64,000 nucleotides of DNA from Arcicella aurantiaca (GTDB taxonomy: Bacteria; Bacteroidota; Bacteroidia; Cytophagales; Spirosomataceae). Made by a program: the position numbers and the translations under genes. Positions 329 through 55,130 of the stretch are shown here, piece by piece (position 1 is the first letter of the stretch; the number at the start of each line of letters is the position of its first letter). Under the pieces are notes generated by a model. The model ran no database searches. It was not told the origin of the DNA and saw only the letters and a list, made by a program, of their open reading frames with translations. The stretch is taken from contig NZ_QGGO01000013.1 of NCBI RefSeq assembly GCF_003148625.1, forward strand, positions 62,001 through 126,000. The letters are read 5' to 3'.

Positions 329-467
329 TAATTCTACGTTAGGACTTTAAAGAAATAGACCAAATTTGACTTGGAAGAACTTCCCGAAAGTTTTAAACTT
401 TCGGGAAGTTGAACGGTAAATACCCAAATCCCCATCTATATTTCTTTAAAGTGCCAAAGTAGAATTA
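329..467. repeat. Nested palindromic element, copy 1
   Basis: Outer arms at 329-357 and 439-467 are 29 nt long and complementary at 26 positions. Inside lies a perfect hairpin at 378-410: the 15-nt arm AACTTCCCGAAAGTT, a 3-nt loop, and its exact complement. The same inner hairpin recurs at 55055-55087, but the outer arms there differ. It fills most of the gap between two minus-strand glycan genes. It could be a small non-autonomous mobile element, a terminator, or both; there is no T-tract typical of an intrinsic terminator. Confidence 0.75.
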
Positions 468-502
468 ATAAGTATTCTAAATGATTTTATCCTAACCCCT
501 AT

Positions 503-1357
503 TTAAAATAATTTAATTTTCTCAAAAACATCAATATAGCTACGCTTGCTGGCATTTAAAACCTTTGTTCCTCGATATTGAGCATATCTCGCCAAGACTT
601 CATAACCTTTAAATGCTTTGTGTAAAGACAAAAATTGACGTGCCATGTAAGACTCTTCTTGACTAACTAACTGATTTATTTGGTAGGTTTTATTACCATA
701 AAAATGAGAATCATCGGCAATAATTTCGTTATTTTCATCCAACCTTATCGACTCGTGCCAAGTGTGGTCAGCTCCCAAAAGATAGATGTTTTTGTATCCT
801 AAATTGATACATCTAAAAACAGAAGCAATCAAAACATTCTGACTTTGAGGCATTCCCAAATCTTTTTTATATATCCAAAAACGAAGCCAATCGAACCCGC
901 CAAAGATAACATAATTGAAATAAACAGGCTGAATAAATTGATTTTTCGAGAATTTATCTTGAAAGTAAGCCGATTTCTTGAATTTATAAGGAATAAAAAC
1001 GTTGATTTTCCAAGCCGTATCTTTTACTAAATGTTCAATAGCTTGGCTTGCTCTTTCATGATTTGGATTAATAAATGCTTCATCTAACAATAAATAATTA
1101 TTCGGCTTTAGTTGCGTGTAATAATCGGAAATAGCAAAAAGATTAACACAGAAAATATCCGACTGAAGAATAAAATCTTTATGATTATCCATAGAATCTT
1201 TCAATGAAGGACCATTTCCAAGAATAACACAATTTTCAGATTGAACTGGCGGATGAGATACACTAAATTTCGACCAAACAATGACCTTTAATATTGAAAA
1301 AATACTATCAAATAATTGCTCAAAAAAGCGTTGAATATTAAGAATACGTTGAATCAA
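503..1357 (-). CDS. Glycan-locus protein, DUF115/MptE-like or GT42-like
   Basis: A 284-residue protein. Near residue 46 it has ILGNGPSLKDS, the phosphate-binding-like N-terminal motif shared by DUF115 (MptE-like) proteins and by GT42 sialyltransferases. A later block, IYLLGADHTWHESI near residue 193, is followed by a region rich in His and Tyr. There is no signal peptide and no strong membrane segment. It is on the same strand as the LegB-like dehydratase and downstream of it in transcription order after the palindrome is excluded, so a role in adding or handling a nonulosonic-acid-type sugar is plausible. I cannot separate a transferase from a non-enzymatic DUF115 protein by eye. Confidence 0.6.
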   Translation of the reverse strand: MIQRILNIQRFFEQLFDSIFSILKVIVWSKFSVSHPPVQSENCVILGNGPSLKDSMDNHKDFILQSDIFCVNLFAISDYYTQLKPNNYLLLDEAFINPNHERASQAIEHLVKDTAWKINVFIPYKFKKSAYFQDKFSKNQFIQPVYFNYVIFGGFDWLRFWIYKKDLGMPQSQNVLIASVFRCINLGYKNIYLLGADHTWHESIRLDENNEIIADDSHFYGNKTYQINQLVSQEESYMARQFLSLHKAFKGYEVLARYAQYRGTKVLNASKRSYIDVFEKIKLF

Positions 1358-1509
1358 GGGATTAGCGGATTAATGTTTAGTGAAGCTTTCCAAGCATAAA
1401 ATTACCTATTATTATACCAATTTGCCAAACTCAACCTAATTTTGTAGAAATAACAACGGAATTCATCGCAAGACAAATCTTAAATAATTCCGAATAACAA
1501 AATCACTGA

Positions 1510-3006
1510 ATGGGAATTATTATTAAACAAACCATAAAAAGTTCTATTTACGCTTACATTGGCATTGCTTTAGGCTTTATCACTACGGCATTTTTAATGC
1601 CTAAAGTATTGACAGAGGCGGAAGTTGGCTTAGTTAGATTATTGGTTTCTGTGATGGTGTTGTTGGCTCAAGTTTCCAATCTGGGATTTAATGCCGCAGG
1701 CGGACGACTATTCCCCTATTTTAGAAACTCCGAACGGCAACATAATGGTTATTTATTTTGGGCTTGTGTGGTTTCCTTTGTGGGTTTGTGCATCACGCTT
1801 GGCACATTTGCCATTAATTACGAGTTTGTTCTAAATTTACTCAATGTAAAAGCCTCTCCTTTACTTCGAGAATACCTGTTTTGGATATTTCCACTTACCA
1901 TCTTTGGCGTTTTCTTTTTAGTATTTGACAATTATGCCAGAGTGCTTTATGATACTGTTTCAGGAACGTTTTTAAGAGAATTTGGGCAACGAGTTTTTCT
2001 ATTCATTGCTATTATTCTGTATCTCTTCAAAATCGTTGATTTTAAAGGCTTTGTAGCAGCATATTGCATTGGCTTATGCTTGCCTACGGTTTTTATGGCA
2101 TTGAGAGTATGGCAACAAGGCAACTTTTTCTTTAAGCCCATTAAAGGTTTTTGGACTAATAAAATCAGAAAGGAATTTATTAGTCTAAGCAGTTTAACAT
2201 TTCTATCTGGATTTACGTCACAAGTAGTTATTTACCTCGACCAACTCCAAGTAACTTCCATCATAAATCTTGATGCCAATGGGATTTATTCAACTATGAT
2301 GATGTTTGGAACGGTCATTTTCACGCCTACAACGCATATTTCAAGAATTGGCGGTGCTGTAATTGCCGAAGCATGGAAAAATAATGATTTAAAAACTATC
2401 AAAGATGTTTATGAAAAAAGCTGCTTGACTTTACTCATCATCGGTAGTTTTTTATTCATTGGTATTGTAACAAATTTGCACAATGTTTTTGAAATTTTAC
2501 CTGCATACGAAGCTGGGAAATGGGTCGTAATTTGGATTGGTTTAGGCAAACTTTTCGATATGGCTACGGGTTTGAATGGGCTTATTCTTCAAACATCAAA
2601 ATATTATTTCTATGATGTTATTTTTATGGTTTTTCTCATCGTTGGCACTTGGTTGATGAATCAATGGCTTATTCCTATTTACGGAATTACGGGAAGTGCC
2701 ATTGCTACGGCTTCTATTATTCTCATTTTTAATATTTTCCGAACCTTTTTTGTTTGGATTGCCTTCGGGATGTTTCCATTTTCTTTGAAAAACATTGGCG
2801 TTATCATCATATCTGCATTGGTTTTTGGACTAACGATGATGATTCCAACTTTCCCTGCCATTGGTAGTATTCCAAGTTTTATGATTGATACGCCTATTCG
2901 TTCATTCATTGTGTCAATACTCTTCGGAAGTGCTATTTATTTTACAAAAATCTCGTCGGATGTAAACCAAATAGTAGATGGATTGCTCAAAAAAGTTATT
3001 CGATGA
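1510..3006 (+). CDS. Polysaccharide flippase (Wzx/MATE-type, oligosaccharide exporter)
   Basis: A 498-residue integral membrane protein with about 12 to 14 hydrophobic segments spread over the whole length. It begins with IIKQTIKSSIYAYIGIALGF, the usual start of the polysaccharide biosynthesis/flippase family of the MOP superfamily. Such proteins move undecaprenyl-linked repeat units across the inner membrane before polymerisation. The length is normal for the family. Its stop codon overlaps the next gene's start (ATGA at 3003-3006), so flippase and acyltransferase are translationally coupled. Confidence 0.88.
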   Translation: MGIIIKQTIKSSIYAYIGIALGFITTAFLMPKVLTEAEVGLVRLLVSVMVLLAQVSNLGFNAAGGRLFPYFRNSERQHNGYLFWACVVSFVGLCITLGTFAINYEFVLNLLNVKASPLLREYLFWIFPLTIFGVFFLVFDNYARVLYDTVSGTFLREFGQRVFLFIAIILYLFKIVDFKGFVAAYCIGLCLPTVFMALRVWQQGNFFFKPIKGFWTNKIRKEFISLSSLTFLSGFTSQVVIYLDQLQVTSIINLDANGIYSTMMMFGTVIFTPTTHISRIGGAVIAEAWKNNDLKTIKDVYEKSCLTLLIIGSFLFIGIVTNLHNVFEILPAYEAGKWVVIWIGLGKLFDMATGLNGLILQTSKYYFYDVIFMVFLIVGTWLMNQWLIPIYGITGSAIATASIILIFNIFRTFFVWIAFGMFPFSLKNIGVIIISALVFGLTMMIPTFPAIGSIPSFMIDTPIRSFIVSILFGSAIYFTKISSDVNQIVDGLLKKVIR

Positions 3007-4034
3007 ACAGACTAAAATCTTTAGATATTCTTCGAGGCTTAACGGCTTTTGCCATTATGTTCTATCATTTTTCGATATGGACAAATAAGGGTGAAGCTCA
3101 CACAGCTGACTCATTTTTGGGACGTATTGGTCTTTATGGCGTTTCTATATTTTTTGTTTTGAGTGGATTAACGATGTATTTGGTCTATCATCACAAAATG
3201 CAAGATTCAAAAGCCATCAAATCATTTTTCATCAAACGAATATTTCGTATTTATCCACTTTATTGGCTGGCTTGTCTGGGTAGTATTTTCTTTTTAGAGA
3301 CTCCCGCCACAAACATGGATATTCTTTGGAATATTACAGGTTTATTTGCCTTTATTAACACTAAATCATTAACTACTGGCGGTTGGTCAATCGGTAATGA
3401 ATTGGTATTTTACGCCTTTTTTCCTTTGTTGATTTGGCTTTCAAAAGATAGAAAGCACTTTTTTTTAACCGTAATTTGGAGTGTTTCTATTGGCATTTTC
3501 TTCGCTTTTTCCTTGTTAAATAATACTTCAAGCATGACTGCCCAATGGCTGACTTATACCAATCCATTCAATCAGCTTTTCTTTTTTGTGGCAGGGATTA
3601 GTCTGGGCAAAATGTCTGATTCAACGCTTTTTTTCAAGCAACATAAAACGTTAAATTTTATCATTCTTTTTTTGATGATTAGCTTATTTGTGTTTTATCC
3701 TACGGTCGGGCAACAAACAAATTTAATTTCAGGGATTAATCGAATCGTTTTCTCAGTTCTGTCGATTGCTATTTGCTATTTCATTTTTACATCAGAAGTA
3801 GAACTACCAATAATTATCGAAAAACCTTTGACTACTTTAGGAGAAATTTCTTACGGAGTTTATCTTATTCATCCGATTATTTTTTTAGAACTTCGTCAAT
3901 TTTTGGCTAATTATATTGAAATTCCTCCGCAGACATTCTTTGTTATTGCCCTTTTTGTTACCGTTTTCATTAGCTTTTTAATATATTCATGGCTTGAAAA
4001 ACCGTTAATTCGTCTGGGGAAAAAAATTAAATAA
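3003..4034 (+). CDS. Acyltransferase 3 family protein (OafA/YrhL-like)
   Basis: A 343-residue membrane protein beginning RLKSLDILRGLTAFAIMFYH, the typical first helix of the acyltransferase 3 family, with its conserved arginine and the downstream His of the YHF motif. About ten transmembrane segments follow, and the last part contains the SYGVYLIHPI motif typical of these enzymes. They transfer O-acetyl or other acyl groups to surface sugars from the cytoplasmic side. It overlaps the flippase gene by 4 nt. The acyl group and the sugar acceptor cannot be told from the sequence. Confidence 0.9.
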   Translation: MNRLKSLDILRGLTAFAIMFYHFSIWTNKGEAHTADSFLGRIGLYGVSIFFVLSGLTMYLVYHHKMQDSKAIKSFFIKRIFRIYPLYWLACLGSIFFLETPATNMDILWNITGLFAFINTKSLTTGGWSIGNELVFYAFFPLLIWLSKDRKHFFLTVIWSVSIGIFFAFSLLNNTSSMTAQWLTYTNPFNQLFFFVAGISLGKMSDSTLFFKQHKTLNFIILFLMISLFVFYPTVGQQTNLISGINRIVFSVLSIAICYFIFTSEVELPIIIEKPLTTLGEISYGVYLIHPIIFLELRQFLANYIEIPPQTFFVIALFVTVFISFLIYSWLEKPLIRLGKKIK

Positions 4035-4054
4035 TGTTAATCAGGTATGGGCTT

Positions 4055-4186
4055 ATGCGATACCAATGCTGTCAATTTAAAGTGTTTTTAATTGTTCCAA
4101 AATTCCAATTTCAACGCTGTCAGGGTTTTGAACCCTGACAGCGTTAGGCGGATAAATTCATTAAATTGACAGCATTAGTATTGCAT
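4055..4186. repeat. Nested palindromic element, copy 2
   Basis: Outer arms at 4055-4079 and 4162-4186 are imperfectly complementary; the core TACCAATGCTGTCAATTTA on the left has one mismatch with the complement of the right arm. The inner perfect hairpin at 4113-4145 has 15-nt arms (AACGCTGTCAGGGTT) and loop TTG. It separates the acyltransferase and GT2 genes. Its end motif TACYAAT is shared with the element at 9268-9367. Confidence 0.75.
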
Positions 4187-4212
4187 ACGTCTCTACAAAA
4201 TATCAAATACTT

Positions 4213-5217
4213 ATGCCCAAAGTGTCCGTCTTGATGCCCATGTTTAATTCTGAGAAATACATCAGAAAAGCTATTGAGAGCATTTTAAATCAAACTTTTC
4301 AAGACTTTGAGTTAGTTATTCTCAATGATGGTTCTATCGACGAGAGCGTTAATATCGTGCATTCTTACCAAGACAAACGTATTCGATTAGTCCATAACGA
4401 ACAAAATCAAGGACTTGCCAAAACTCGAAACAGATTGATTGCTGAGGCAAAAGGTGAGTTTATTGCTTGGCTTGATTCAGACGATATTGCCCATACCGAA
4501 AGACTGAAAATACAAGTTGATTTTTTGGAAAAACACCCAAAACACGCCTTTGTGGCTTCATGGGCAAGGCTCGTAGATAATGACGGGAATCCAACGGGTG
4601 GTTTTATTAAATCTTATATTCCCGACACGCATTTATCTGCTCTATTATTATTCGTAAATTACATCGTTCAGTCGAGTGTTTTACTCAGAAAATCACTATT
4701 ACCCACACAGCATTATAATCTTGATTATCCTCCGACGGAAGATTATGAACTTTGGGTGAGAATTGCACAAAATCATCCTATTGCCATTTTAAAAGATATT
4801 TTGGTGGATTATCGGGTGCATGATACCAATATTAGTTTTACCCAAAACGACAAAGCGATGCGTACCGTAAAACTAAATCATGAAGGGCAATTGAGGAAAT
4901 TAGGTATTGAACCAAGTCTCGAAGAACTCAATTTACACTATCAATTGGGTTTTGAACACGGAGAAAAGACAGATAAAGAGTTTATTAAAAAGGCTGAAAA
5001 TTGGTTATTGAAACTTGAACAACATAATCAAAAAAATAAGATTTATGACATAGAAGCCCTAAAATACATTTTGGCTCATCGTTGGACTAAAATTTGTACT
5101 TCAAATCCCGAATTGGGTTTGAGTGTTTTAGGTCTTTATTTTAAATCCAAAATACTTAAACTAACTTTACAAAACAGTTTCATTATTGGTCAGTATTTAA
5201 CAAAAGCCTTATTATAG
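4213..5217 (+). CDS. Glycosyltransferase family 2 protein
   Basis: A 334-residue cytoplasmic GT-A fold enzyme. The N-terminus is VSVLMPMFNSEKYIRKAIES, the standard GT2 nucleotide-binding start. The acidic motif WLDSDD near residue 93 supplies the metal-binding DxD. The segment PPTEDYELWVRI near residue 175 is the family's acceptor-side ED motif. The C-terminal 100 residues are helical and unassigned. It should add a sugar from a nucleotide donor to the lipid-linked repeat unit; donor and linkage are unknown. Confidence 0.9.
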   Translation: MPKVSVLMPMFNSEKYIRKAIESILNQTFQDFELVILNDGSIDESVNIVHSYQDKRIRLVHNEQNQGLAKTRNRLIAEAKGEFIAWLDSDDIAHTERLKIQVDFLEKHPKHAFVASWARLVDNDGNPTGGFIKSYIPDTHLSALLLFVNYIVQSSVLLRKSLLPTQHYNLDYPPTEDYELWVRIAQNHPIAILKDILVDYRVHDTNISFTQNDKAMRTVKLNHEGQLRKLGIEPSLEELNLHYQLGFEHGEKTDKEFIKKAENWLLKLEQHNQKNKIYDIEALKYILAHRWTKICTSNPELGLSVLGLYFKSKILKLTLQNSFIIGQYLTKALL

Positions 5218-5230
5218 GTAATAATTTCTA

Positions 5231-6052
5231 ATGAATATATTTTTTGAACTATTTATCGCTATTTTAAAAGTAAGAAAACTTCCATTAAGCTTTTCTCAAA
5301 AATTTGAACTGGATTGGGTTTTATTCAAATTAGCCTTTTTAAAAATTTTCAGTAAAAACCAGACAAATGTTACAATTCAACTTTTTGGATTAATAATTGA
5401 AAACTATAATTACAGACTTTTAGATTACTTAATCAAAGAGGTTTTTGTAGCTAATGAATACTATTTCCAAACTGAAAATAAGGCACCTATTATTGTTGAC
5501 TGTGGTGCAAATATTGGTATGGCTACACTATTTTTCAAATGGTTACAACCTAATGCAACAATATATTCTTTTGAACCTCAAAAATCTACTTTTGATATTT
5601 TAGAAAGAAATATTAAGAGAAATAATCTTCAGAATGTCCATTACTTTAATTTAGCATTATCTGATAGTAATGGGACTATTGATTTTTTTGGAGAAGATAG
5701 TTCAAATCTTATGTCAAGTGTATTACAGGAGCGTTCTACAGGGAAAAAAGTAACGGTTGAGTGTAGAAAACTTTCAGATTTCGTTTCTATCATTTCAGAA
5801 CCAATAGATTTATTAAAAATAGATGTTGAAGGAGCTGAAACTTTTATCCTTAAAGATTTGATTGATACAAATAAACTTGACAAAAGTGTTTTCAAGCAAA
5901 TTATTATGGAATATCATCATAAAATAGAAAATCAGTCTTCAAAAATGGGAGAGTTTTTATTACCATTTGAAAAACAAGGTTATGAGTACCAAGTAAGAGC
6001 TGATTTTAAACAACTAAGTACCTTTCAGGATATGTTACTACATTTTTTTTAA
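5231..6052 (+). CDS. FkbM family methyltransferase
   Basis: A 273-residue protein with a class I SAM-dependent methyltransferase core. Motif I is IVDCGANIGMATLFF near residue 87, the acidic ribose-binding motif is YSFEPQ near residue 113, and LLKIDVEGAETFILK near residue 195 is the FkbM (Methyltransf_21) signature. The N-terminal 80 residues are typical of the glycan-locus branch. It starts 13 nt after the GT2 stop, so they are probably cotranscribed. The likely role is O-methylation of a surface sugar. Confidence 0.88.
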   Translation: MNIFFELFIAILKVRKLPLSFSQKFELDWVLFKLAFLKIFSKNQTNVTIQLFGLIIENYNYRLLDYLIKEVFVANEYYFQTENKAPIIVDCGANIGMATLFFKWLQPNATIYSFEPQKSTFDILERNIKRNNLQNVHYFNLALSDSNGTIDFFGEDSSNLMSSVLQERSTGKKVTVECRKLSDFVSIISEPIDLLKIDVEGAETFILKDLIDTNKLDKSVFKQIIMEYHHKIENQSSKMGEFLLPFEKQGYEYQVRADFKQLSTFQDMLLHFF

Positions 6053-6069
6053 ATATAAATTCAACTCAC

Positions 6070-6732
6070 ATGAAAAAAATCATCGCTACAATCATTTTAA
6101 ATTTATCCGTTTTTCATCTTATTATTTCACAGTCTTTACCTTCTGGGACAACGGCTGTTAAACCCTATCTGACAAGTAATAAAGTGAGTATTGGAAGTAA
6201 TCCTGCTACACTTAATAAGTTGTACATTGAGGATAATTCTACAAACACATACCCCGTAGATGAAAGAGATTTCATTAAACTTAACAATACAGATGTCACT
6301 ACCAACTCAGCCGTTACCCATGTGATGACTGCTGGTACAAGTGGAGCAAGATTAGAACTTGGAATATTTGGCTCAAATTATGGCAATTCCTCTTATTTGA
6401 ATAGCACTTTTGCCAATCGAGGAACGCTCATTGCAAGAGGTGGAAGTGGGCTTGTTATTCGCTCCTCTCCAGATGCAAATGGATATTATGTTTTTGATGG
6501 AATTACTTTTCAAGTTGGAGCAAATACCCCAGAACGTATGCGAATCACAGGAGACGGCAACGTAGGTATCGGCACAACTGCCCCAAATGCTAAACTGCAA
6601 GTAACCAACGGTGATGTTTATGTAGAAAATCCATCGAGAGGTATTATTTTAAAATCTCCAAATGGTACTTGTTGGCGTGTAACTATTGACGATACGGGCA
6701 ATTTTGTCCGAAATCAAATCACTTGTCCTTAA
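6070..6732 (+). CDS. Secreted protein with GNVGIGT tail-fibre-like motif
   Basis: A 220-residue protein with a signal peptide (KKIIATIILNLSVFHLIISQ) and then a Ser/Thr/Asn-rich mature part. The motif GDGNVGIGTTAPNAKLQV near residue 160 occurs widely in Bacteroidota cell-surface and phage-tail-fibre-like proteins, just before a coiled or intramolecular-chaperone region. Here the protein ends about 40 residues after it, so no peptidase S74-type domain is present. It lies 17 nt after the methyltransferase gene and its end overlaps the upstream candidate start of the next gene. Function unknown; a surface protein is an inference. Confidence 0.65.
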   Translation: MKKIIATIILNLSVFHLIISQSLPSGTTAVKPYLTSNKVSIGSNPATLNKLYIEDNSTNTYPVDERDFIKLNNTDVTTNSAVTHVMTAGTSGARLELGIFGSNYGNSSYLNSTFANRGTLIARGGSGLVIRSSPDANGYYVFDGITFQVGANTPERMRITGDGNVGIGTTAPNAKLQVTNGDVYVENPSRGIILKSPNGTCWRVTIDDTGNFVRNQITCP

Positions 6733-8060
6733 TAAAACCATTGAAAATTCTCCTACTAAATACAGACGATTTTACGGGCGGAGCAGCCATTGCTTGTCGC
6801 CGTTTGCTCAAAGCCTTACGTACTCATACGGGTGTAAATGCACAGATGTTGGTGCAAGAAAGTAAATCTGGACAAGAAGGAGTTGTTCAATTAAATAATT
6901 CGTGGTTTTCAAAGAAAAAAGCTTTTTTGCGATTCGTGGCAGAAAGGCTTTATTTTTTCTTTTTTGAGAAGTCTAAAGAAGTTCGCTTTCTCTTTAATCC
7001 CGCCAAATTTGGCATGGATATTTCTAAAAATCAAGACATTACAAATTCTGATATTATTCATTTACATTGGATAAACTTTGGTTTTCTTTCTATTAGTTCT
7101 CTTCAAAAACTCTTCAAAACCCAAAAACCTATCGTCTGGACTTTGCACGATATGTGGGCATTTACGGGAGGTTGTCATCACTCAGGTGAATGCGAAAATT
7201 ATCAAAAATCTTGTGGTAATTGCGATAAATTCTTAAAAACCCCTTCTGATAATGACCTTTCAAACCAAATTTGGAAAGATAAAACAAAAGCATTTGAAGG
7301 AGCAAATCTTACGGTTATTACGTGTAGCCAATGGCTTGGGAATCGGGCAAAACAAAGTTCATTATTCAAAAATGTTCGGGTAGAATCTATTCCAAATCCA
7401 ATTGATATTGATGTTTTTCATCCGATTGATAAAGCAAAAGCTCGTCAAAAGTTCGGACTTTCGGAAGACAAACAATATATTCTTTTTGCTGCCATGCGAG
7501 TGGATGCAGTAGGCAAAGGATTTGCTTATTTTGCAGAGGCACTTTCAATTTTAAATGCTCGTTTATTGAATCTCGAAGCGGAACGCCGCCCGAATCGAAC
7601 ATCGAACCGAAGCGTCGGTCGCATCGAAATTATCGTTTTTGGTCAAGCGGAGGCTTCTGATTTTGATTCGCTTCCATTTAAAGTTAATATTCTCGGACGA
7701 CTTTCTGATTTATCAACAATTGCCCACGCCTATTCTGCGGCTTCTGTTTTTGTGATTCCGTCTTTGGAAGAAAATTTACCCAATACCATCATGGAATCTA
7801 TGGCTTGCGGAACGCCTGCCGTGGGTTTTAATGTAGGCGGAATTCCAGAAATGATTGAACATGAAACAAGCGGAGTGCCACCCACAGGCTATTTAGCCAA
7901 GTATAAATCTGCTGAAGACCTCGCCAAAGGTATTTATTGGACTTTATTTGAATCTGATTATCAATCACTTGCCCATAATTCACGACAAAAAGTATTAGAT
8001 AATTATTCTGAAAAAGTAGTCGCCGAAAAGTATAAAAGAGTTTATGTGTCTATGAGTTAA
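6723..8060 (+). CDS. Glycosyltransferase family 4 protein
   Basis: A GT-B enzyme of up to 445 residues. There is no ATG near the start; TTG at 6723 overlaps the upstream gene by 10 nt, while TTG at 6741 gives the more family-like start MKILLLNTDDFTGGA and no overlap. The C-terminal half has the retaining GT4 signature ENLPNTIMESMACGTPAVGF (E-x7-E) near residue 355, followed by NVGGIPEMI. A Cys-rich loop (CHHSGECENYQKSCGNC) near residue 150 is common in this GT4 subgroup. The stretch encoding ERRPNRTSNRSVGR near residues 287-300 is GC-rich compared with the rest and looks like an in-frame insertion. Confidence 0.9.
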   Translation: MSLIKPLKILLLNTDDFTGGAAIACRRLLKALRTHTGVNAQMLVQESKSGQEGVVQLNNSWFSKKKAFLRFVAERLYFFFFEKSKEVRFLFNPAKFGMDISKNQDITNSDIIHLHWINFGFLSISSLQKLFKTQKPIVWTLHDMWAFTGGCHHSGECENYQKSCGNCDKFLKTPSDNDLSNQIWKDKTKAFEGANLTVITCSQWLGNRAKQSSLFKNVRVESIPNPIDIDVFHPIDKAKARQKFGLSEDKQYILFAAMRVDAVGKGFAYFAEALSILNARLLNLEAERRPNRTSNRSVGRIEIIVFGQAEASDFDSLPFKVNILGRLSDLSTIAHAYSAASVFVIPSLEENLPNTIMESMACGTPAVGFNVGGIPEMIEHETSGVPPTGYLAKYKSAEDLAKGIYWTLFESDYQSLAHNSRQKVLDNYSEKVVAEKYKRVYVSMS

Positions 8061-8284
8061 GAGTTTATGAGTATCGCTCTCCCAATGTCATTGGGTTAAG
8101 AAATAAATCAGCGTTTATAACAAAAGTAATAAAGAATGAAGAAGTAAAATACCCCTGTAAAACTTCTAAAATCTACATTTCTGATTCAGAATTCTTAATT
8201 CAAAACCCTTAACTTAATGACATTGGTTGCCCTCCTACACTCATAACCTTTTAACTCATAAACTCTCAACCCAATAGCCATTCC
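8057..8284. repeat. Word-repeat quasi-palindrome between two glycosyltransferase genes
   Basis: The left part contains GAGTTTATGAGT and CCCAATGTCATTGGGTTAAG. The right part contains the complements: CTTAACTTAATGACATTGG and ACTCATAACC...ACTCATAAACTC. The 227-nt gap can therefore fold into one long imperfect hairpin. It codes for nothing convincing. Confidence 0.6.
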
Positions 8285-9040
8285 ATGCAAATTTCAATCA
8301 TTACCATAACATACAACGCTGAGCAATTTTTAGAACGTACTATCCAAAGTATTTTGGCACAAACTAACCAAGATTTTGAATACATTATCATTGACGGAAA
8401 GTCAAAAGATGGGACATTAGCAATTGCAGAGAAATACAAAAATCGGGTTGATATACTAATTTCTGAACGTGACAAAGGGCTTTACGACGCCATGAATAAA
8501 GGCTTAAAAACCGCTTCGGGTGATTTTGTTTGGTTTATGAATGCAGGTGATGAAATCAACGACAACCGAGCGATTGAGCATATTTACAAAGCCATTTCTG
8601 ATAATACAGACGTACTTTACGGGGATACTTATTTTGTAGATAATAACGGTAATATTCAAGGTTTACGTTCTGAAATTACCCCGCATCGTTTACCTAAAAA
8701 TCTGAAATGGCAAGATATGAAACTCGGAATGTTGGTTTGTCATCAAGCATTTATTGCTCGAAAATCAGTTGCTCCTTTTTACATGGAAAATAATTTGAGT
8801 GCCGATGTTGATTGGGAAATTGAATGTTTGAAACGTGCCAAAAAGATTCAATATTTAGATTTTGTCGTGGCAAAATACTTGACAGGCGGAGTATCAAACC
8901 AACAACTAAAACGCTCTTTATTAGACCGTTATGAAGTATTGAAAAAACATTTTGGTTTATCAGGTGCAATAACGGCACATTTACAAATTTTATTCAGAGG
9001 GGTAAATTTGATTATTAAAAAACGTGGTAAATATTGGTAG
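8285..9040 (+). CDS. Glycosyltransferase family 2 protein
   Basis: A 251-residue GT-A enzyme starting MQISIITITYNAEQFLERTI. IIIDGKSKDGT near residue 35 and GLYDAMNKGLKTASGDFVWF near residue 62, followed by MNAGDE, are hallmarks of the short WcaA/Bacteroidota colanic-acid-type GT2 branch. The length is normal. It is the last gene of the glycan cluster. Its stop codon TAG forms part of the GTAG foot of the first unit in the repeat array that follows. Confidence 0.9.
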   Translation: MQISIITITYNAEQFLERTIQSILAQTNQDFEYIIIDGKSKDGTLAIAEKYKNRVDILISERDKGLYDAMNKGLKTASGDFVWFMNAGDEINDNRAIEHIYKAISDNTDVLYGDTYFVDNNGNIQGLRSEITPHRLPKNLKWQDMKLGMLVCHQAFIARKSVAPFYMENNLSADVDWEIECLKRAKKIQYLDFVVAKYLTGGVSNQQLKRSLLDRYEVLKKHFGLSGAITAHLQILFRGVNLIIKKRGKYW

Positions 9041-9400
9041 AGACGTTGCCTGCAACGTCTTGAATTTAACATTATAGATATAGCAATAGGATGGAAAAAT
9101 ATTAGTAGAAATGTTGCCTGCAACGTCTTGAATTTAACATTAGAGATATAGCAATAGGATGGAAAAATATTGGTAGAAATGTTGCCTGCAACGTCTTGAA
9201 TTTAACATTATACATATAGCAATAGGATGGAAAAATATTAGTAGAAATGTTGCCTGCAACGTCTTGATACTAATTTAAAAAAGTTATTGCGTATCTGACT
9301 CTCAACGGAAGTCGTCGTTCAAAACGACGACTTCCGTAAAGTACGCATCAAATTATTAAAATTGGTATGAATTTAACATTATACATATAGCAATAGGAAT
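9037..9400. repeat. 68-bp tandem repeat carrying a REP palindrome, four copies
   Basis: The dyad GTTGCCTGCAACGTCT starts at 9045, 9113, 9181 and 9249, an exact 68-nt period. Each unit starts with GTAG followed by the dyad AGACGTTGCCTGCAACGTCT (or a one-arm variant beginning AAATG) and then an A+T-rich spacer containing TAGCAATAGGATGG. The fourth copy is split by a nested element at 9268-9367 and resumes at 9371. The GTAG plus hairpin layout is that of REP sequences used by RAYT transposases. Confidence 0.85.
9268..9367. repeat. Nested palindromic element, copy 3, inserted into the 68-bp repeat
   Basis: Outer arms of 26 nt at 9268-9293 and 9342-9367 begin with TACTAATTTAA and end with the near complement TTAAAATTGGTA. 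The inner perfect hairpin at 9305-9337 has 15-nt arms (ACGGAAGTCGTCGTT) and loop CAA. TGA is present on both sides (9265-9267 and 9368-9370), and removing the element plus one TGA restores the repeat unit seen in copies 1 to 3. This is direct evidence of an insertion. Confidence 0.85.
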
Positions 9401-9434
9401 AAAAAAAGCGTTGAAAATTTCAACGCTTTTTTTG
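9401..9434. terminator. Bidirectional intrinsic terminator
   Basis: A-tract, stem AGCGTTGAA, loop AAT, stem TTCAACGCT and T-tract; it can serve the plus-strand glycan cluster and the minus-strand isomerase gene. Confidence 0.85.
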
Positions 9435-9453
9435 TTTGATTTTTGGGAATTAT

Positions 9454-9478
9454 TAGACGTTGCAGGCAACGTCTCTAC
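9454..9478 (-). repeat. REP palindrome, AGACGTTGC family, single copy
   Basis: AGACGTTGCAGGCAACGTCT followed by CTAC. On the minus strand this is a GTAG-footed copy of the palindrome found in the 68-bp array. It lies directly downstream of the isomerase gene's stop codon. Confidence 0.75.
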
Positions 9479-9482
9479 AATT

Positions 9483-10541
9483 TTACAAACCTAAAATTCT
9501 TTTATTCAATTCAATATCAGCACCACCACCTGCAAAATCATCAAATATTTTTGATGTTGCTTGAATAATGTGAGAAGCAATAAATGGTGCTCCTTCTTCT
9601 GCTCCTTGAACGGGGTCTTTAATAGCACATTCCCATTCCATAACTGCCCAACCGTCGAAACCGTATTGCGTTAATTTTGAGAAAATCGAAGCAAAATCTA
9701 CTTGACCATCGCCCAATGAACGGAAACGTCCAGCACGATTTACCCACGACTGATACCCTCCATAAACACCTTGTTTTCCTGTTGCATTAAATTCTGCATC
9801 TTTTACGTGGAAAGCACGGATTCTTTCGTGATAAAAATCTATATATTGCAGATAATCAAGACATTGTAATACAAAGTGAGATGGGTCGTACAACAAACAA
9901 GCACGTGAATGATTGTTTACTTTTTCCAAAAACATCTCATACGTTTCGCCATCGTGCAAGTCTTCTCCTGGGTGAATTTCGTAACAAACGTCCACGCCAT
10001 GTTCGTCAAAATGGTTCAAAATTGGTAACCAACGATTCGCCAATTCTGTAAAACCCATATCTACCAAACCTTGTGGTCTTTGAGGCCAAGGGTACATGGT
10101 GTGCCAAAGTAAAGAACCCGAAAATGTTGCGTGCGATTTCAACCCTAAATTTTGAGAAGCCTGTGCTGCCCATTTCAATTGTTGAATCGCCCACTCAGTA
10201 CGAGCTTTAGGATTTCCTTTTACTGAATCTGGAGCAAAACCGTCAAAACCCGCATCGTAAGCAGGATTTACTGCTACTAATTGTCCTTGTAAATGGGTCG
10301 ATAACTCGGTAATTTGCAAACCTTTATCAGCTAACTTTCCTGTAAGTTCATCACAGTAAGTTTTAGAAGTTGCCGCTTTTTCAAGGTCGATGGCACGTGA
10401 ATCCCAAGTCGGAATTTGGATACCTTTATAACCTAAACCCGAAACCCAATCCGTAATAGAATCAAGTGAATTAAATGGTTCTTTATCGTCTAAAAATTGG
10501 GCTAAAAATATAGCAGGTCCTTTGATTGTTTTCATAATCAA
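9483..10541 (-). CDS. Sugar phosphate isomerase/epimerase (xylose isomerase-like TIM barrel)
   Basis: A protein of 350 to 352 residues, without a signal peptide. The start is either ATG at 10539-10541 or, more family-like (MKTIKGPAIFLAQF), the ATG at 10533-10535. Metal-binding residues of the AP-endonuclease-2-type barrel are visible: CYEIHPGED (Glu, His) near residue 190, LLYDPSHF near residue 220, FHVKDAEF near residue 248 and a late Glu in VMEWE near residue 302. Together with the Gfo/Idh/MocA gene upstream in the same direction, this suggests conversion of a keto or deoxy sugar or inositol. The substrate cannot be read from the sequence. Confidence 0.88.
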   Translation of the reverse strand: MIMKTIKGPAIFLAQFLDDKEPFNSLDSITDWVSGLGYKGIQIPTWDSRAIDLEKAATSKTYCDELTGKLADKGLQITELSTHLQGQLVAVNPAYDAGFDGFAPDSVKGNPKARTEWAIQQLKWAAQASQNLGLKSHATFSGSLLWHTMYPWPQRPQGLVDMGFTELANRWLPILNHFDEHGVDVCYEIHPGEDLHDGETYEMFLEKVNNHSRACLLYDPSHFVLQCLDYLQYIDFYHERIRAFHVKDAEFNATGKQGVYGGYQSWVNRAGRFRSLGDGQVDFASIFSKLTQYGFDGWAVMEWECAIKDPVQGAEEGAPFIASHIIQATSKIFDDFAGGGADIELNKRILGL

Positions 10542-10590
10542 TTGTGAATTAGTGAATTAGTGATTTGTGAATATATACTACCACAAAACT
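10541..10590. repeat. Word repeat (GTGAATTA), left bracket of the four-helix-bundle gene
   Basis: Words of the type TTGTGAATTAGTGAATTAGTG. Their complements (CACAATTCACAACTCACTAAA) lie on the other side of the gene at 11077-11098. Confidence 0.55.
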
Positions 10591-10591
10591 C

Positions 10592-11005
10592 CTAATCAGG
10601 TAAATTATTTTTCCGTTGAAGTGCATCTCCAACTGTTTTTCTTGATTTTGAGAGTATTTTTAAAATTTCACTGCCTTCATCAATTAAATTTTTCAATTTG
10701 GATTCTTGATGAAAATTTGCATCAATTGAGTATTCTAACCAGAATAAACTCTCGTCTAATTCTTCGATTACAATACTTAATTTCGCAAAAAACTCTTTAC
10801 TACTTCTTGACCTTCTGGCAGCACGATAATTTGCGACAGAAGATGCAGAAGAACGAACGAGTTGTCCTGCAATATTTTTAGCAGAAAGACTTTTCTGAAA
10901 TAAATTATCACAAACAGGAATACACCTCAAACCAAAGGATTTTATTCTTTGAAATAGCATTTCAGCAAACTCGTCTTGAGTTTTTGACGGAGTAGAATCA
11001 TTCAT
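10592..11005 (-). CDS. Four-helix-bundle protein (23S rRNA intervening-sequence family)
   Basis: A 137-residue, mostly helical protein. It contains FAEMLFQRIKSFGLRCI, then AGQLVRSSASSVANYRAARR near residue 46, then FFAKLSIVIEELDESLFWLE, the signature of the S23/four-helix-bundle family first seen inside rRNA intervening sequences. Members form oligomers; their function is unknown. It lies between two sugar-metabolism genes and is bracketed by inverted word-repeat sequences (10541-10590 and 11030-11100), which suggests it arrived as a cassette. It has no obvious connection with its neighbours. Confidence 0.88.
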   Translation of the reverse strand: MNDSTPSKTQDEFAEMLFQRIKSFGLRCIPVCDNLFQKSLSAKNIAGQLVRSSASSVANYRAARRSRSSKEFFAKLSIVIEELDESLFWLEYSIDANFHQESKLKNLIDEGSEILKILSKSRKTVGDALQRKNNLPD

Positions 11006-11029
11006 TTTAATAGTTTTGTAGATAAATAC

Positions 11030-11100
11030 ATTGATGAGTTGTGAACTGAGATTAGCACTTTATAACTACTCACAATTCACAACTCACTAAATCACAATTA
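11030..11100. repeat. Word repeat, right bracket of the four-helix-bundle gene
   Basis: Contains GAGTTGTGAACTGAG and, after a short spacer, CACAATTCACAACTCACTAA, so it is itself a quasi-palindrome as well as the complement of 10541-10590. Confidence 0.55.
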
Positions 11101-11105
11101 AAAAA

Positions 11106-12251
11106 CTAAACCTTCACCCAGCCTTGGCTTCTGTGCGAATCTAAGATTCTTTCGCAGATTAATAATTCACGGTAACCATCTGCAAATGTTGGGAATGGAG
11201 CGTTTTCTGGCATTTTTCCTGCTGCTACGGCTGCGTAAACTTCTTTGAAAAGCTGCTTTGATGTATCTGGGAAACCTTCGTTGTGTCCACCTGGGAAAGT
11301 CATTAATGCACCTGCTTCTGGGTATGCCAATGATGGGTCACGCATTAATACTTGGTTGTAGCTATCACGATTACCAATCCAAAGTTCGTTTGGTGCTTCT
11401 GAATTGAAAGCAAACGTTTTATTTGAACCTGAAATCTCTAATTTCAACTGATTTTTACGTCCTGCCGAAACTTGAGAAACCGTTACTAAACCTTTATTTC
11501 CGTTGTCAAAACGCAATAAAACGTTAGCCGTATCTTCCGTATTGATATTTACATCAGCATAATCTTCTGGTTGTAACATTTTTCCAGAATACGTTTCAAC
11601 TGGCTTCAATGGCTTTTTACGAGTTTTATGAACGGTGTTAAAATCAGCCATAACTTCTACCGTTTTTAAGCCTGTGATGTATTCGATTACGTCCATCAAG
11701 TGTGAGCCAATATCTGCAATAGCACGAGAATCTCCCGATTTGTCTGGTTCTAAACGCCAGTTATAATCTGTATTGAAGAACAACCAATCTTGTAAATAAG
11801 ACCCGATGATTGAATAAACATCACCTAAATCGCCTTTTTCACGCATGGTTTTCATCTGACGAACCAATGGATAATATCTCAAGTTGAAGTGAACCGCATT
11901 TACTAAACCTGTTTCTTTAGCAAGAACCACTAATTCCTCTGCTTCGTGCAAGTCTTTCGCCAATGGTTTTTCACAAACAACGTGTTTCCCAGCTAATAAA
12001 GCCGCTTTTGACTGTGAATAATGCAAGAAATTAGGCGTACAAATATGCACACACTGAATATCTTCCATCGCTAATAATTGGTCAAACGTACATGGACGTT
12101 CGATACCCAATTGAGCCGCTTTGGCAGTGGCTAATTCAATATTTACTTCACAAAGAGCAGTAACTTCAATATTTGGAAGACGACGAAGAGCTTCAATATG
12201 AGCTGGTCCGATAAATCCTGTGCCTACGACACCTACTTTAATTTTTGACAT
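11106..12251 (-). CDS. Gfo/Idh/MocA family NAD(P)-dependent oxidoreductase
   Basis: A 381-residue two-domain oxidoreductase. The N-terminal Rossmann fold starts KVGVVGTGFIGPAHIEAL (GxGxxG at residues 10-15). The catalytic-lysine motif CEKPLAKDL lies near residue 93, and IADIGSHLMDVIEYI near residue 178 provides the conserved His of the C-terminal domain. The closest general type is the sugar or inositol dehydrogenase-like group of Bacteroidota. No signal peptide is present, so it is cytoplasmic. It is probably cotranscribed toward the isomerase-like gene unless the cassette between them interferes. Substrate unknown. Confidence 0.9.
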   Translation of the reverse strand: MSKIKVGVVGTGFIGPAHIEALRRLPNIEVTALCEVNIELATAKAAQLGIERPCTFDQLLAMEDIQCVHICTPNFLHYSQSKAALLAGKHVVCEKPLAKDLHEAEELVVLAKETGLVNAVHFNLRYYPLVRQMKTMREKGDLGDVYSIIGSYLQDWLFFNTDYNWRLEPDKSGDSRAIADIGSHLMDVIEYITGLKTVEVMADFNTVHKTRKKPLKPVETYSGKMLQPEDYADVNINTEDTANVLLRFDNGNKGLVTVSQVSAGRKNQLKLEISGSNKTFAFNSEAPNELWIGNRDSYNQVLMRDPSLAYPEAGALMTFPGGHNEGFPDTSKQLFKEVYAAVAAGKMPENAPFPTFADGYRELLICERILDSHRSQGWVKV

Positions 12252-29836: not shown

Positions 29837-30859
29837 ATGACCAAAACGCTTCCTAAATATCAAACTATATTTTTACACCTTGCTTTTTGGGCATTTGTGT
29901 TAGCATTACCATTTTTGTTAAAGTATTCAACTCCCCCAACAGGAATACATAAAAAGACAGTCATTCAGTCGTTCACAATGACTGAATTCTTCACAATTTT
30001 TGCCCTCATCAATGTTCCTTTCTTTTATTTGAATAGTGAAATCTTAATTCCAAAAATATTACATAAAAAAGGGATTTTAGTATATTTAATTTCAGCAATA
30101 GGATTAATTGTAGGAGTTTTTTTTCTGCATACATTAATTAAAGACATTTTTTTTCCCGGTCAATTTATTCCAAGAACAGGCTCATCTTTTCAGTTGCTTT
30201 TCTTTTTGGCAATAAGTGCTGCATACAGAATTATGTCCGATAATTTGCAATATGAACAAGAACAGAAAGAGCAAGAAACTGAAAAACTAAAATCTGAACT
30301 ATCATTTTTACGTTCACAGATTAGTCCGCACTTTATGTTTAATGTGCTAAATAGTATCGTTTCTTTATCACGAAGAAAACCAGAAAAGGTTGAACCTGTG
30401 GTAGTTAAACTTTCAGACTTGATGCGTTATATGCTTTACGAATCTGATGATGCCAAAGTTACATTGCAACGAGAAGCTCAATACCTTAGAGCCTATATAG
30501 AACTCCAACAATTACGTTTTGGTGATGACATTGAGATTAATTTTAATGCTGACAATCTAAACGGAAACAAAACTATTGAACCCATGTTATTGATTCCATT
30601 TGTTGAAAATGCCTTCAAACATGGCGTTGGTATGATTATAAATCCAACAATTGATATTGATTTACATACAACAGACAGTAAAATTACGTTTGAAGTAAAG
30701 AATAAAGTAAACAGACAATATAAAGAGGAAAAAGACGGAGCTTCGGGTATTGGTTTGGCTAACGTAAAAAGACGTTTGGAATTATTATATCCCGATAACC
30801 ATAGGCTAACGATTAAAGATGAAGACCAATTTTATGGTATTTATTTAGAAATTAGTTAA
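29837..30859 (+). CDS. LytS/YehU-type sensor histidine kinase
   Basis: A 340-residue membrane kinase. About four hydrophobic segments lie in residues 1-140, with no sensor domain of recognisable type. A short coiled coil (EQEQKEQETEKLKSEL) leads into the His_kinase box FLRSQISPHFMFNVLNSI near residue 155, where the His of SPHF is the phospho-acceptor. The ATPase part has LLIPFVENAFKHG near residue 250 and GIGLANVKRRLE near residue 305. It forms a pair with the LytTR regulator that starts 80 nt downstream. The stimulus is unknown. Confidence 0.93.
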   Translation: MTKTLPKYQTIFLHLAFWAFVLALPFLLKYSTPPTGIHKKTVIQSFTMTEFFTIFALINVPFFYLNSEILIPKILHKKGILVYLISAIGLIVGVFFLHTLIKDIFFPGQFIPRTGSSFQLLFFLAISAAYRIMSDNLQYEQEQKEQETEKLKSELSFLRSQISPHFMFNVLNSIVSLSRRKPEKVEPVVVKLSDLMRYMLYESDDAKVTLQREAQYLRAYIELQQLRFGDDIEINFNADNLNGNKTIEPMLLIPFVENAFKHGVGMIINPTIDIDLHTTDSKITFEVKNKVNRQYKEEKDGASGIGLANVKRRLELLYPDNHRLTIKDEDQFYGIYLEIS

Positions 30860-30862
30860 AAA

Positions 30863-30919
30863 TAGCACAGACTTTAGTCTGTAAATCAAATAGAAATTAC
30901 AGACTAAAGTCTGTGCTAC
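30863..30919. repeat. REP/BIME palindrome, ACAGACTTTAGTCTGT family, inverted pair
   Basis: TAGCACAGACTTTAGTCTGTAA and its exact complement TTACAGACTAAAGTCTGTGCTA, separated by about 12 nt. It sits between the histidine kinase and the response regulator genes, directly after the kinase stop codon. Confidence 0.85.
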
Positions 30920-30939
30920 TCTTTAAAACTCATAAAATT

Positions 30940-46787: not shown

Positions 46788-46798
46788 CGAAGGATATT

Positions 46799-51612: not shown

Positions 51613-51615
51613 ACC

Positions 51616-52221: not shown

Positions 52222-52314
52222 AAAATCTAACAGATGGTTATTCTTTCAAAGATACAATTTTTGTTAAAAACTTGAAATACCCTTCACTCATTGTAACTTT
52301 GTCCTTGTACATTT

Positions 52315-52385
52315 TGTGATTACATGAATTGTGATTGAGTGAATATTGGACGAAAATAATCACTCAATCACAATTCAAACAGTCA
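52315..52385. repeat. Word-repeat quasi-palindrome upstream of murB
   Basis: TGTGATTACATGAATTGTGA and TTGTGATTGAGTGA face TCACTCAATCACAATTC. The left arm GTGATTGAGTGA is exactly complementary to TCACTCAATCAC. It ends within a few nucleotides of the murB ATG. Confidence 0.65.
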
Positions 52386-52395
52386 CCATTAAATT

Positions 52396-53412: not shown

Positions 53413-53431
53413 AATATCAAATTTTACAATT

Positions 53432-54073: not shown

Positions 54074-54074
54074 T

Positions 54075-54160
54075 ATTAAGGTGTTAGGTGTTAGGATTTA
54101 GGCATTAGAAAGTTGGTCTTTCAATTCTTAATCCCTAATACCCAACGCCTAACCCCAAAA
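54075..54160. repeat. Word-repeat quasi-palindrome (GTTAGG/CCTAA)
   Basis: AAGGTGTTAGGTGTTAGGATTTAGG on the left; AATCCCTAATACCCAACGCCTAACC on the right. Fills the gap before kdsA and ends just at its start codon. Confidence 0.65.
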
Positions 54161-54161
54161 C

Positions 54162-54971
54162 ATGAACATCCCAAAATTAAAAAACTTAGACAAAAATAAT
54201 TTCTTCCTCATGGCAGGAAGTTGTGCGATTGAAAACCGTGATTTGGCTTTTGAAATTGCTGAAAAAATCAAAGGAATTACTGACCAATTTGGTATTCCAT
54301 ACATTTTTAAAGGTTCATATCGCAAGGCAAATCGTACAAAATTGGATTCTTTTACAGGAATTGGAGACATTACGGCTTTGGAAATCTTGAAAGAAGTGGG
54401 AGAATATTACGACTTACCAACAGTTACGGATATTCATGAGTCGCAAGAAGCGGCGATGGCAGCAAAATATGTTGATGTTTTACAAATTCCAGCGTTTTTA
54501 TGTCGTCAGACGGATTTATTGGCTGCCGCAGCTCAAACGGGGAAAGCTGTTAATATCAAAAAAGGACAATTTATGGCGGGTGTGTCGATGAAATTTGCCG
54601 TTGAAAAAGTCCTGCATGAAAACCCAAATGCTCAAGTTTTCTTAACGGATAGAGGAAATTCTTTCGGCTACGGAGATTTAGTAGTTGATTATCGTAACAT
54701 TCCAGAAATGCAAGCACACGGCGTACCTGTGGTGATGGACTGCACGCACTCGTTGCAAAGACCAAATCAGGGTTCAGGCGTGACGGGCGGAAATCCTCAA
54801 ATGATTGAAACCATTGCAAAAGCTGCCATTGCAGTTGGTGCGGAAGGTTTATTTATTGAAACTCACCCAAATCCTGCCATTGCAAAATCTGACGGAGCAA
54901 ATATGTTGCCTTTAGACCAATTGGAAGGACTTTTAGAGAAATTAGTAAAAATTCGTCAAGCAATTATTTAG
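54162..54971 (+). CDS. kdsA: 3-deoxy-8-phosphooctulonate (KDO-8-P) synthase
   Basis: A 269-residue aldolase making KDO 8-phosphate for lipopolysaccharide core. FFLMAGSCAIENRDLAFEIA, then PYIFKGSYRKANRTKLDSF near residue 45 and DRGNSFGYGDLVVDYRNIP near residue 160 are typical; the metal-site residues (Cys13-type in GSCAIE, His and Asp of MDCTHSLQRPNQ) indicate a metal-dependent-like form, though this needs alignment. Its stop codon TAG is the start of the following GTAG-footed REP. Confidence 0.95.
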   Translation: MNIPKLKNLDKNNFFLMAGSCAIENRDLAFEIAEKIKGITDQFGIPYIFKGSYRKANRTKLDSFTGIGDITALEILKEVGEYYDLPTVTDIHESQEAAMAAKYVDVLQIPAFLCRQTDLLAAAAQTGKAVNIKKGQFMAGVSMKFAVEKVLHENPNAQVFLTDRGNSFGYGDLVVDYRNIPEMQAHGVPVVMDCTHSLQRPNQGSGVTGGNPQMIETIAKAAIAVGAEGLFIETHPNPAIAKSDGANMLPLDQLEGLLEKLVKIRQAII

Positions 54972-55130
54972 TAGCACAGGTTTCCAACCTGTGTTTAAAA
55001 ACTAAAGATAGCTTGGAAACCAATGTCGTTTAGTTAAGAAATTTATTTGGTACAAACTTCCCGAAAGTTTAAAACTTTCGGGAAGTTAATCGGCTTAACT
55101 AAACGATATTGGGTTGGAAACCTGTCCTAC
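54971..55130. repeat. REP pair (CACAGGTTTCC family) split by nested palindromic element
   Basis: GTAGCACAGGTTTCCAACCTGTG (54971-54993, dyad of 8 bp arms) and TTGGAAACCTGTCCTAC (55114-55130) are an inverted pair. Between them, 55022-55113 is an inserted-looking nested element: outer arms AATGTCGTTTAGTTAAG and CTTAACTAAACGATATT, inner perfect hairpin 55055-55087 (arms AACTTCCCGAAAGTT, loop TAA). TTGGAAACC occurs on both sides (55013-55021, 55114-55122), as a possible duplication. Confidence 0.75.

Follow-up and report, generated by a model that had tools for sequence, protein, structure and literature searches.

Nested palindromes in the window

We examined a stretch of 64,000 nt from Arcicella aurantiaca (contig NZ_QGGO01000013.1, positions 62,001–126,000; referred to as the window, whose positions are used for all coordinates below), in which four short hairpins each lie near the centre of a longer, imperfect palindrome. 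Every inner hairpin is a perfect inverted repeat of 33 nt with two 15-nt arms and a 3-nt loop (15+3+15), and all four carry GTT-NNN-AAC at the tip. We describe here the relation of these hairpins to repetitive extragenic palindromic (REP) elements and to REP-associated tyrosine transposases (RAYTs), and that of the outer palindromes to miniature inverted-repeat transposable elements (MITEs). In the labels used, L numbers are examined loci, C with a number is a contig of the same genome and G numbers are genomes, including congeners (G003–G006). The inner hairpins are as follows.

378–410, no strand assigned: inner REP-like hairpin of 33 nt, type A, AACTTCCCGAAAGTT-TTA-AACTTTCGGGAAGTT; 33 genome copies, with A-type hairpins at the RAYT genes L151, L153 and L258.
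4113–4145, no strand assigned: inner REP-like hairpin of 33 nt, type B, AACGCTGTCAGGGTT-TTG-AACCCTGACAGCGTT; 6 genome copies.
9305–9337, no strand assigned: inner REP-like hairpin of 33 nt, type C, ACGGAAGTCGTCGTT-CAA-AACGACGACTTCCGT; 19 genome copies.
55055–55087, no strand assigned: inner REP-like hairpin of 33 nt, type A, arms as at 378–410, loop TAA.

The hairpins at 378 and 55055 share the type A arms and differ in the loop (TTA and TAA). Since these loops close with a T-A pair, both can also be read as 16+1. Single-stranded DNA folding of the four units, compared with shuffled sequences, gave z values of −8.8, −9.5, −8.6 and −9.2. The preliminary description of this DNA had reported the four loci with their common inner hairpin and tip, two inner hairpins identical apart from the loop, outer imperfect repeats that differ between loci and ACYAAT-like ends at three of the four. 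All of these features are present, the outer repeats being recovered by an inverted-repeat scan and inspection as unrelated to one another, and only the ends of the loci are refined, to 332–464, 4060–4181, 9267–9368 and 55020–55112.

The 15+3+15 geometry is over-represented

Hairpins with a 3-nt loop were counted in 40 sampled 20-kb stretches and the window (864 kb altogether), with at most one mismatch allowed and low-complexity arms excluded. There were 27 hairpins with 15-nt arms, compared with 11, 3, 1 and 6 for arms of 13, 14, 16 and 17 nt, and a GTT/AAC tip was found in 14 of the 27. When the window was left out (800 kb), arms of 13–17 nt gave 10, 3, 22, 1 and 6 hairpins, with the GTT/AAC tip in 10 of the 22. 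Equal abundance of other stem lengths, which would have refuted the preliminary description, was therefore not seen: outside the window, 15+3 hairpins number 22, compared with 3 for 14+3 and 1 for 16+3, and the geometry is not due to chance. Read with a 5-nt loop, arms of 14 nt gave 35 hairpins, made up of the same hairpins together with 13+7+13 variants.

The copy numbers given above allow at most one mismatch for hairpin A and at most three for B and C. Some REP families have hundreds of copies, and the numbers for A, B and C are lower.

Two further kinds of stem were seen. A strong, bidirectional terminator-like stem at 9397–9437, between convergent open reading frames (ORFs), is among the 27 counted hairpins, and its 33-nt core is unrelated in sequence to the hairpin family. 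Paired 13+7+13 variants of hairpin A, with starts 46 bp apart, occur at L043:14863–14941 and 19296–19374, and similar runs lie downstream of the RAYT gene L254.

The hairpins accompany a clade of RAYT genes

When six Y1 proteins were compared with 99 loci holding the hairpin A pattern, a RAYT gene was found at two of them. At L151 there are hairpins on both sides of the gene, and at L153 one hairpin lies in frame inside the gene and another behind it. A protein search from L151 was then made in 121 genomes of the window's bacterial family and gave matches with E ≤ 0.001 in 80, including weak ones that belong to other Y1 groups. Three RAYTs of the hairpin clade in the A. aurantiaca genome itself (C35, C2 and C21) were found only by this search.

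A 15+3+15 hairpin with at most one mismatch lies within 300 bp of the RAYT gene at 34 of 50 loci, one of which (L285) is outside the clade, and on both sides of the gene at 23 of the 50; the background is 54 of 2000 random windows. Outside the window's bacterial family, 22 of 29 RAYT loci have a hairpin within 500 bp or inside the gene, against a background of 135 of 2000. The helper transposase that the preliminary description had proposed to look for thus has a candidate in these genes.

The identity of the RAYT also covaries with that of the hairpin: over 36 loci, including L151 and L153, to which the hairpin itself had led, the Mantel r is 0.477, and 0 of 5000 permutations reached it. Type A tracks a single RAYT clade, whose 9 rows come from three bacterial families and whose support of 92/94 is below the tool's mark for strong support; L151 and L153 are again 2 of the 9. 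Type-B-like hairpins, AACGCTGTCAAGGTT, occur at the RAYT genes L268, L269, L271, L276 and L292, and a type-C-like hairpin, ACGGAAGTCGTCCTT, at the RAYT gene L301 of the congener G005. This covariation explains why one geometry occurs with several sequences.

Among the distinct arms next to RAYT genes (n=60), the first base is A in 60, position 14 is C or T in 58 and the final base is T in 54. No GTAG or CGTC foot was seen in the hairpins listed for the RAYT loci, the arms consisting of an A followed by variable bases. Nine RAYT genes contain a hairpin in frame; in L382 it follows the Tyr motif, and in the other eight it separates the HUH motif from the Tyr motif. The arrangement shows three features of a REPtron: a transposase gene flanked by its cognate repeat, a RAYT of the HUH-Y1 type and many dispersed copies in the genome.

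Judged from its sequence, the hairpin-associated protein is a RAYT of the HUH-Y1 type and belongs to a divergent clade. NCBIfam NF047646 (REP-associated tyrosine transposase) was matched with E ≤ 0.001 by all eight sequences tried, although the curated cut-off is 80 bits and the two scores shown reach 62.7 and 49.8. A profile of the eight compared with the PDB gave TnpA-REP (4er8, E 9.5e-7) as the sole match up to 0.1. Across 51 aligned rows, with L285 excluded, the two histidines of HUH are conserved in 94% and 96% and the tyrosine of YIHxNP in 98%. The WQ motif of typical RAYTs was not seen in the aligned clade, whose own motifs are YIHxNP and, from printed segments and the consensus, G-x-LF...F-x-R. 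With Pfam PF01797 (Y1_Tnp), L151 scored below the cut-off, L301 gave no match and four of the eight gave weak matches. The low score of L151 fits the failure of PF01797 to find C35, C2 and C21 in their own genome, and surveys that use Y1_Tnp alone may therefore overlook the clade.

Other Y1 genes were considered as helpers. Seven Y1 genes of the genome detected with PF01797 were rejected, as no 15+3+15 hairpin was found around them in a search for perfect arms of at least 9 nt with loops of 2–8 nt. Integron attC sites and IS200/605 ends, two candidates suggested by the GTT/AAC tips, were set aside. Another RAYT, at L051 (C19), has different palindromes nearby, TGGTTCAAG...CTTGAACCA, which are perhaps its own repeat family; near L020:15721 there is a similar sequence with GAGGACG, which is complementary to a CGTC tag. 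Upstream of L050 (C15), arrays of short palindromes, CAACGGATTTTAATCCGTTG and CGGTAGATTAAAATCTACCG, precede an IS200-like gene.

Hairpins in other genomes and inside genes

Hairpin A was found exactly in at least 99 stretches of other genomes. Among the matches listed, its hosts are Runella, Spirosoma, Siphonobacter, Arcicella, Chryseolinea, Saprospiraceae and Chitinophagaceae, its surroundings are mostly unrelated between genomes, and 27 of 100 occurrences lie within an open frame of at least 150 codons, a proportion for which no chance expectation was computed. Some of these frames are recognisable by eye as genes. A text search of the literature with six arm sequences returned two papers, whose titles show no relation to the hairpins.

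One insertion boundary is seen in hisC of Runella limosa (L130), where the hairpin is an insert of 33 nt (11 codons) and the gene is longer by exactly 33 nt than 10 of 11 homologues from the window's bacterial family. At the flanks of 139 de-duplicated insertions, only a direct match of one base was in excess (61 against 37 expected); no flanking direct repeat of more than one base rose above expectation at the hairpin itself.

Three of the four outer palindromes are separate mobile units

The outer units and the palindromes related to them are listed here.

332–464, no strand assigned: outer unit A1, MITE-like, ends TTCTAC...GTAGAA, inverted repeat of ∼30 bp; 4-bp duplication TTAA at 328–331 and 465–468.
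4060–4181, no strand assigned: outer unit B, MITE-like, ends ATACCAATGCTGTCAATTTAA / ATACTAATGCTGTCAATTTAA, placed from the inverted repeat alone.
9267–9368, no strand assigned: outer unit C, 102 bp, ends ATACTAATTT...AAATTGGTAT, within one copy of a 68-bp tandem repeat; 1-bp (G) duplication.
55020–55112, no strand assigned: outer unit A2, MITE-like, ends CCAATGTCGTTTAGTTAAG...CTTAACTAAACGATATTGG; 8-bp duplication.
54971–55130, no strand assigned: third, outermost layer, a GTAG-tagged repeat dimer GTAGCACAGGTTTCCAACC...GGTTGGAAACCTGTCCTAC, recipient of unit A2.
8081–8227, no strand assigned: A2-like palindrome CCAATGTCATTGGGTTAAG / CTTAACTTAATGACATTGG with no central hairpin, an unoccupied frame.

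Flanking duplications, which the preliminary description had left to be tabulated, were found at the outer units, with 4 bp for A1, 8 bp for A2 and only 1 bp for C. Units A1 and A2 both combine terminal inverted repeats with a target-site duplication, as MITEs do. For A1, exact 4-bp duplications (TTAA, CTAA or TTAG) are present in all six copies for which both ends were found; YTAR duplications are typical of part of the IS5 family. For A2, the duplication in the window, CTTGGAAA (55012–55019) and GTTGGAAA (55113–55120), is identical at 7 of 8 positions. The paralogues L193 and L194 have exact 8-bp duplications, and at L038, L191 and L223 the duplication is not clear. At the orthologous site of the congener G005, the GTAG repeat dimer is present and unit A2 is absent.

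The empty site for unit C lies in the window itself. Three copies of the tandem repeat, at 9053, 9121 and 9189, are uninterrupted at the point of insertion (CAACGTCTTGAATTTAACATT), and the exact ends and the 1-bp duplication of the unit follow from this comparison. For unit B, the orthologous region was not found in the congeners, and neither an empty site nor a target duplication was identified. Three of the four outer palindromes are thus separate mobile units, by target duplications or by empty sites.

The same hairpin also occurs in different frames, hairpin A being carried by at least five unrelated ones in the A. aurantiaca genome, as judged by inspection. The reverse situation is seen at L327–L332 of this genome, where another palindromic element lies within the loop of hairpin C. 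At L327, the 8 tip bases of hairpin C, GTTTTGAA, are repeated on both sides of the inserted MITE-like element. Direct repeats of 8–9 nt are present at the junctions of L327–L329 (9 nt at L328 and L329) and of 7 nt at L332, and none were seen at L330 and L331. A single event, multiplied together with the frame, may account for all six copies.

A few further observations concern these units. The composites at L327–L332 are ∼260–380 bp long and consist of unit C, hairpin C and the second palindromic element, with ends GCTACGGTTTATACAC; at L330, a GTAG hairpin with the foot on both sides lies inside that element, giving four or more layers. In the congener G006 there are 53 matches to the unit B region, many spanning nearly the whole unit, which suggests that unit B has been amplified there. 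The 68-bp tandem repeat (9029–9267, 3.5 copies) includes a small palindrome with a GTAG-like tag, GTAGAAATGTTGCCTGCAACGTCT, and was not seen in the orthologous gap of G003–G006. Between two ORFs, at 30858–30923, TAGCACAGACTTTAGTCTGT is present as an inverted dimer and forms a GTAG-like repeat pair.

Nesting is above chance but involves a minority of copies

With flanks of 150 bp, an outer palindrome above the 99% control was found at 23 of 154 hairpin sites (14 of 58 in the A. aurantiaca genome and 9 of 96 elsewhere). With flanks of 70 bp, the corresponding values were 24 of 58 for the A, B and C sites of this genome and 8 of 99 elsewhere. The hairpin sits close to the centre of the surrounding palindrome, the median asymmetry being 0.05 for the 23 nested sites and 0.14 for 28 control palindromes. 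Nesting is therefore above chance, yet it is a feature of a minority of copies.

Origin of the nested palindromes

We consider it very probable that the hairpins are REP-like elements of a RAYT clade of Bacteroidota, domesticated HUH-Y1 transposases that act on single strands, that the outer arms are independent MITE-like palindromes and that the nesting arose by repeated insertion. This reading draws on the fixed geometry, the association and covariation with RAYT genes, the in-frame insertions, the 33-nt boundary in hisC and the duplications or empty sites of three of the four outer units.

Under this reading, each RAYT lineage would have its own hairpin sequence on the common build A-N12-YT-NNN-AR-N12-T. 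The 33-nt hairpin would insert without a target duplication into intergenic DNA, into reading frames (as 11 codons) and into other mobile palindromes, and the RAYT itself would move it, acting on folded single strands. As the hairpin is its own reverse complement except for the loop, the RAYT could act on either strand. The outer palindromes would be mobilised by other transposases that leave their own target duplications. A hairpin inside a MITE would be copied along with it, MITEs would enter hairpins in turn, and repeated rounds of both kinds of insertion would produce the nested palindromes. Hairpin tips or palindrome centres may be the preferred targets.

The preliminary description saw one family of nested palindromes shaped by modular exchange of arms. 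The shared inner geometry and the combinable modules remain, but two kinds of mobile unit are combined. Because three of the four outer palindromes are separately mobile, nesting needs only the entry of one palindrome into another, and no exchange of arms is required.

Several observations count against this interpretation. No transposition was observed. Sixteen of the 50 RAYT loci and 7 of the 29 outside the family have no qualifying hairpin, although among the 16 the loci L253–L255 and L297 carry close type A variants with other loop lengths; the 50 loci are also not independent, since several are near-identical. The RAYT with a type-C-like hairpin was found in a congener and not in the A. 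aurantiaca genome, where L256, the RAYT closest to type A, has longer-loop variants, AACTTTCCGAAAGT, on its flanks rather than exact A. The type A hairpin is patchy, being present in 2 of 296 genomes of a phylum sample that consists mostly of lineages without it. In hisC, 1 of the 11 homologues differs by 44 nt and not 33, and a second coding insertion, in an aldolase/dehydrogenase gene (L102), has neither a clean difference of 11 residues nor an exact boundary, the comparison with 12 relatives giving gaps of other sizes. By the 99% criterion 131 of the 154 sites are not nested, so that most copies are un-nested, and the window site at 55055 passes with 70-bp flanks and fails with 150-bp flanks; copies of one MITE are, moreover, not independent. 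Finally, the hairpins lack the GTAG/CGTC foot. We file them as a REP-like variant only, as this foot is one of the defining features of described REPs.

The alternative that fares best concerns the nesting alone and is compatible with the origin by RAYT and MITE insertion. It is a serious rival to tip preference: a few MITE insertions at random positions were amplified, and the central position of the hairpin is hitch-hiking. The un-nested majority of sites and the multiplication of single events by MITE copies speak for it, and we give it nearly an even chance. Several distinct frames nevertheless hold a near-central hairpin, with the low asymmetry noted above, one element entered hairpin C at the loop, and REPs in palindromes are reported elsewhere in passages of PMC3733652.

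A broader and more speculative proposal gives tip preference a larger part, and we think it somewhat more probably wrong than right. The hairpin would be a strand-symmetric REP found throughout Bacteroidia, of a fixed 33 nt or 11 codons, legible on both DNA strands and without a guide tetranucleotide; the RAYTs would recognise the A-T foot and the YT-NNN-AR tip and deliver it preferentially to hairpin tips of mobile palindromes, nesting it layer by layer.

Gene conversion, or template switching from one palindrome to another, might take the place of transposition in carrying hairpin sequences from frame to frame. Inspection showed that frames A1 and A5 share a short sequence next to the hairpin, cTTGGAgg...GAACGG, and the exchanged block may therefore exceed 33 nt there. 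Against this stand the hairpins that flank cognate RAYT genes and the insertions in hisC and other genes, where no prior homology is visible, and we think it unlikely as an account of the family.

We regard it as highly improbable that the whole nested unit is the sole mobile element, a composite MITE whose centre became the hairpin and in which the hairpin is not separately mobile. Units A1, A2 and C do appear to move whole, but the type A hairpin occurs in the several unrelated frames of this genome and in many unrelated surroundings elsewhere, hairpins are found in RAYT and other genes, and hisC contains the 33-nt insert. Least probable of all is that the hairpins are terminators or RNA-stability elements kept by selection, with incidental spread: the four window copies are outside any ORF of at least 100 codons and the units are very stable when folded, but none of three hairpins was terminator-like in a scan of window positions 1–12000 (where the stem at 9397–9437 adjoins one of them), copies lie inside reading frames and the hairpin sequence tracks the RAYT gene.

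Comparison with known systems

Passages of PMC3733652, PMC6006769 and PMC8266576 already describe REPs and RAYTs, as well as REPs that lie in frame or inside palindromes. The preliminary description knew of no named family with this build. The missing GTAG/CGTC foot agrees with that view, but the inner part fits REP/RAYT systems and REPs within palindromes have been reported (passages of PMC3733652).

The closest general likeness is to the REPtrons, in which REPs of the GTAG and CGTC families accompany a RAYT (TnpA-REP). According to passages of PMC3733652 and PMC8266576, these too are dispersed short palindromes that flank an HUH-Y1 gene and covary with the transposase, with intergenic and in-frame copies. 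The present hairpins differ in their strand-symmetric 15+3+15 form of 33 nt, with an A...T closing pair and a YT/AR tip and no GTAG/CGTC foot.

Among the TnpA-Y1 subclasses, 2.6 (RAYT group 5) is described in passages of PMC6006769 as mostly from Bacteroidetes, with flanking ‘atypical secondary structures’ that also occur elsewhere in the genome, a guide-recognition region that is not conserved and a Tyr motif of the YIH[QN]NP type. In contrast to the present clade, the table of that paper gives a WQ motif, and the atypical structures are not described in those passages, whereas the form here is a fixed 15+3+15. Compared by description, the agreement in motif and host range is partial. The 33-nt symmetric build may correspond to the atypical structures beside subclass 2.6 RAYTs. 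Subclass 2.4 (RAYT group 4) shares REPs in frame in tnpA-REP between HUH and Tyr, the position seen here in 8 of 9 genes; in other passages of PMC6006769, however, its REPs are of the canonical type, long or with a double foot (GT[AG]G), and its protein has WQ and YIxNNP, whereas the present clade has neither that foot nor WQ.

Nesting has parallels in Anabaena variabilis, Halothiobacillus neapolitanus and Thermomicrobium roseum, where REPs or REP dimers lie inside longer palindromes. As given in passages of PMC3733652, each of those species has a single palindrome type, and the REPs are of the GTAG/CGTC kind; the present hairpins have no GTAG and lie in several MITE-like frames, for two of which target duplications were measured, with three or more layers in places. 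The Rickettsia palindromic elements (Ogata/Claverie, cited in PMC3733652) are likewise palindromes in frame in protein-coding genes and are likened here by description, not by sequence; the present hairpins differ from them in their association with a RAYT clade and in the fixed 33-nt build.

For hairpins that recur across Bacteroidota, genes included, the present reading offers a likely helper and a testable substrate. Without a GTAG foot, such RAYTs would need another means of choosing the cleavage site, and they provide a new setting for the study of REP recognition. With a frame-preserving, strand-symmetric design of 33 nt and its nesting in MITEs, both the choice of target and the tolerance of in-frame copies can be tested directly. 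Set beside the known systems, a strand-symmetric hairpin of 33 nt that has no GTAG/CGTC foot and sits within several MITE-like frames appears to be a new variant.

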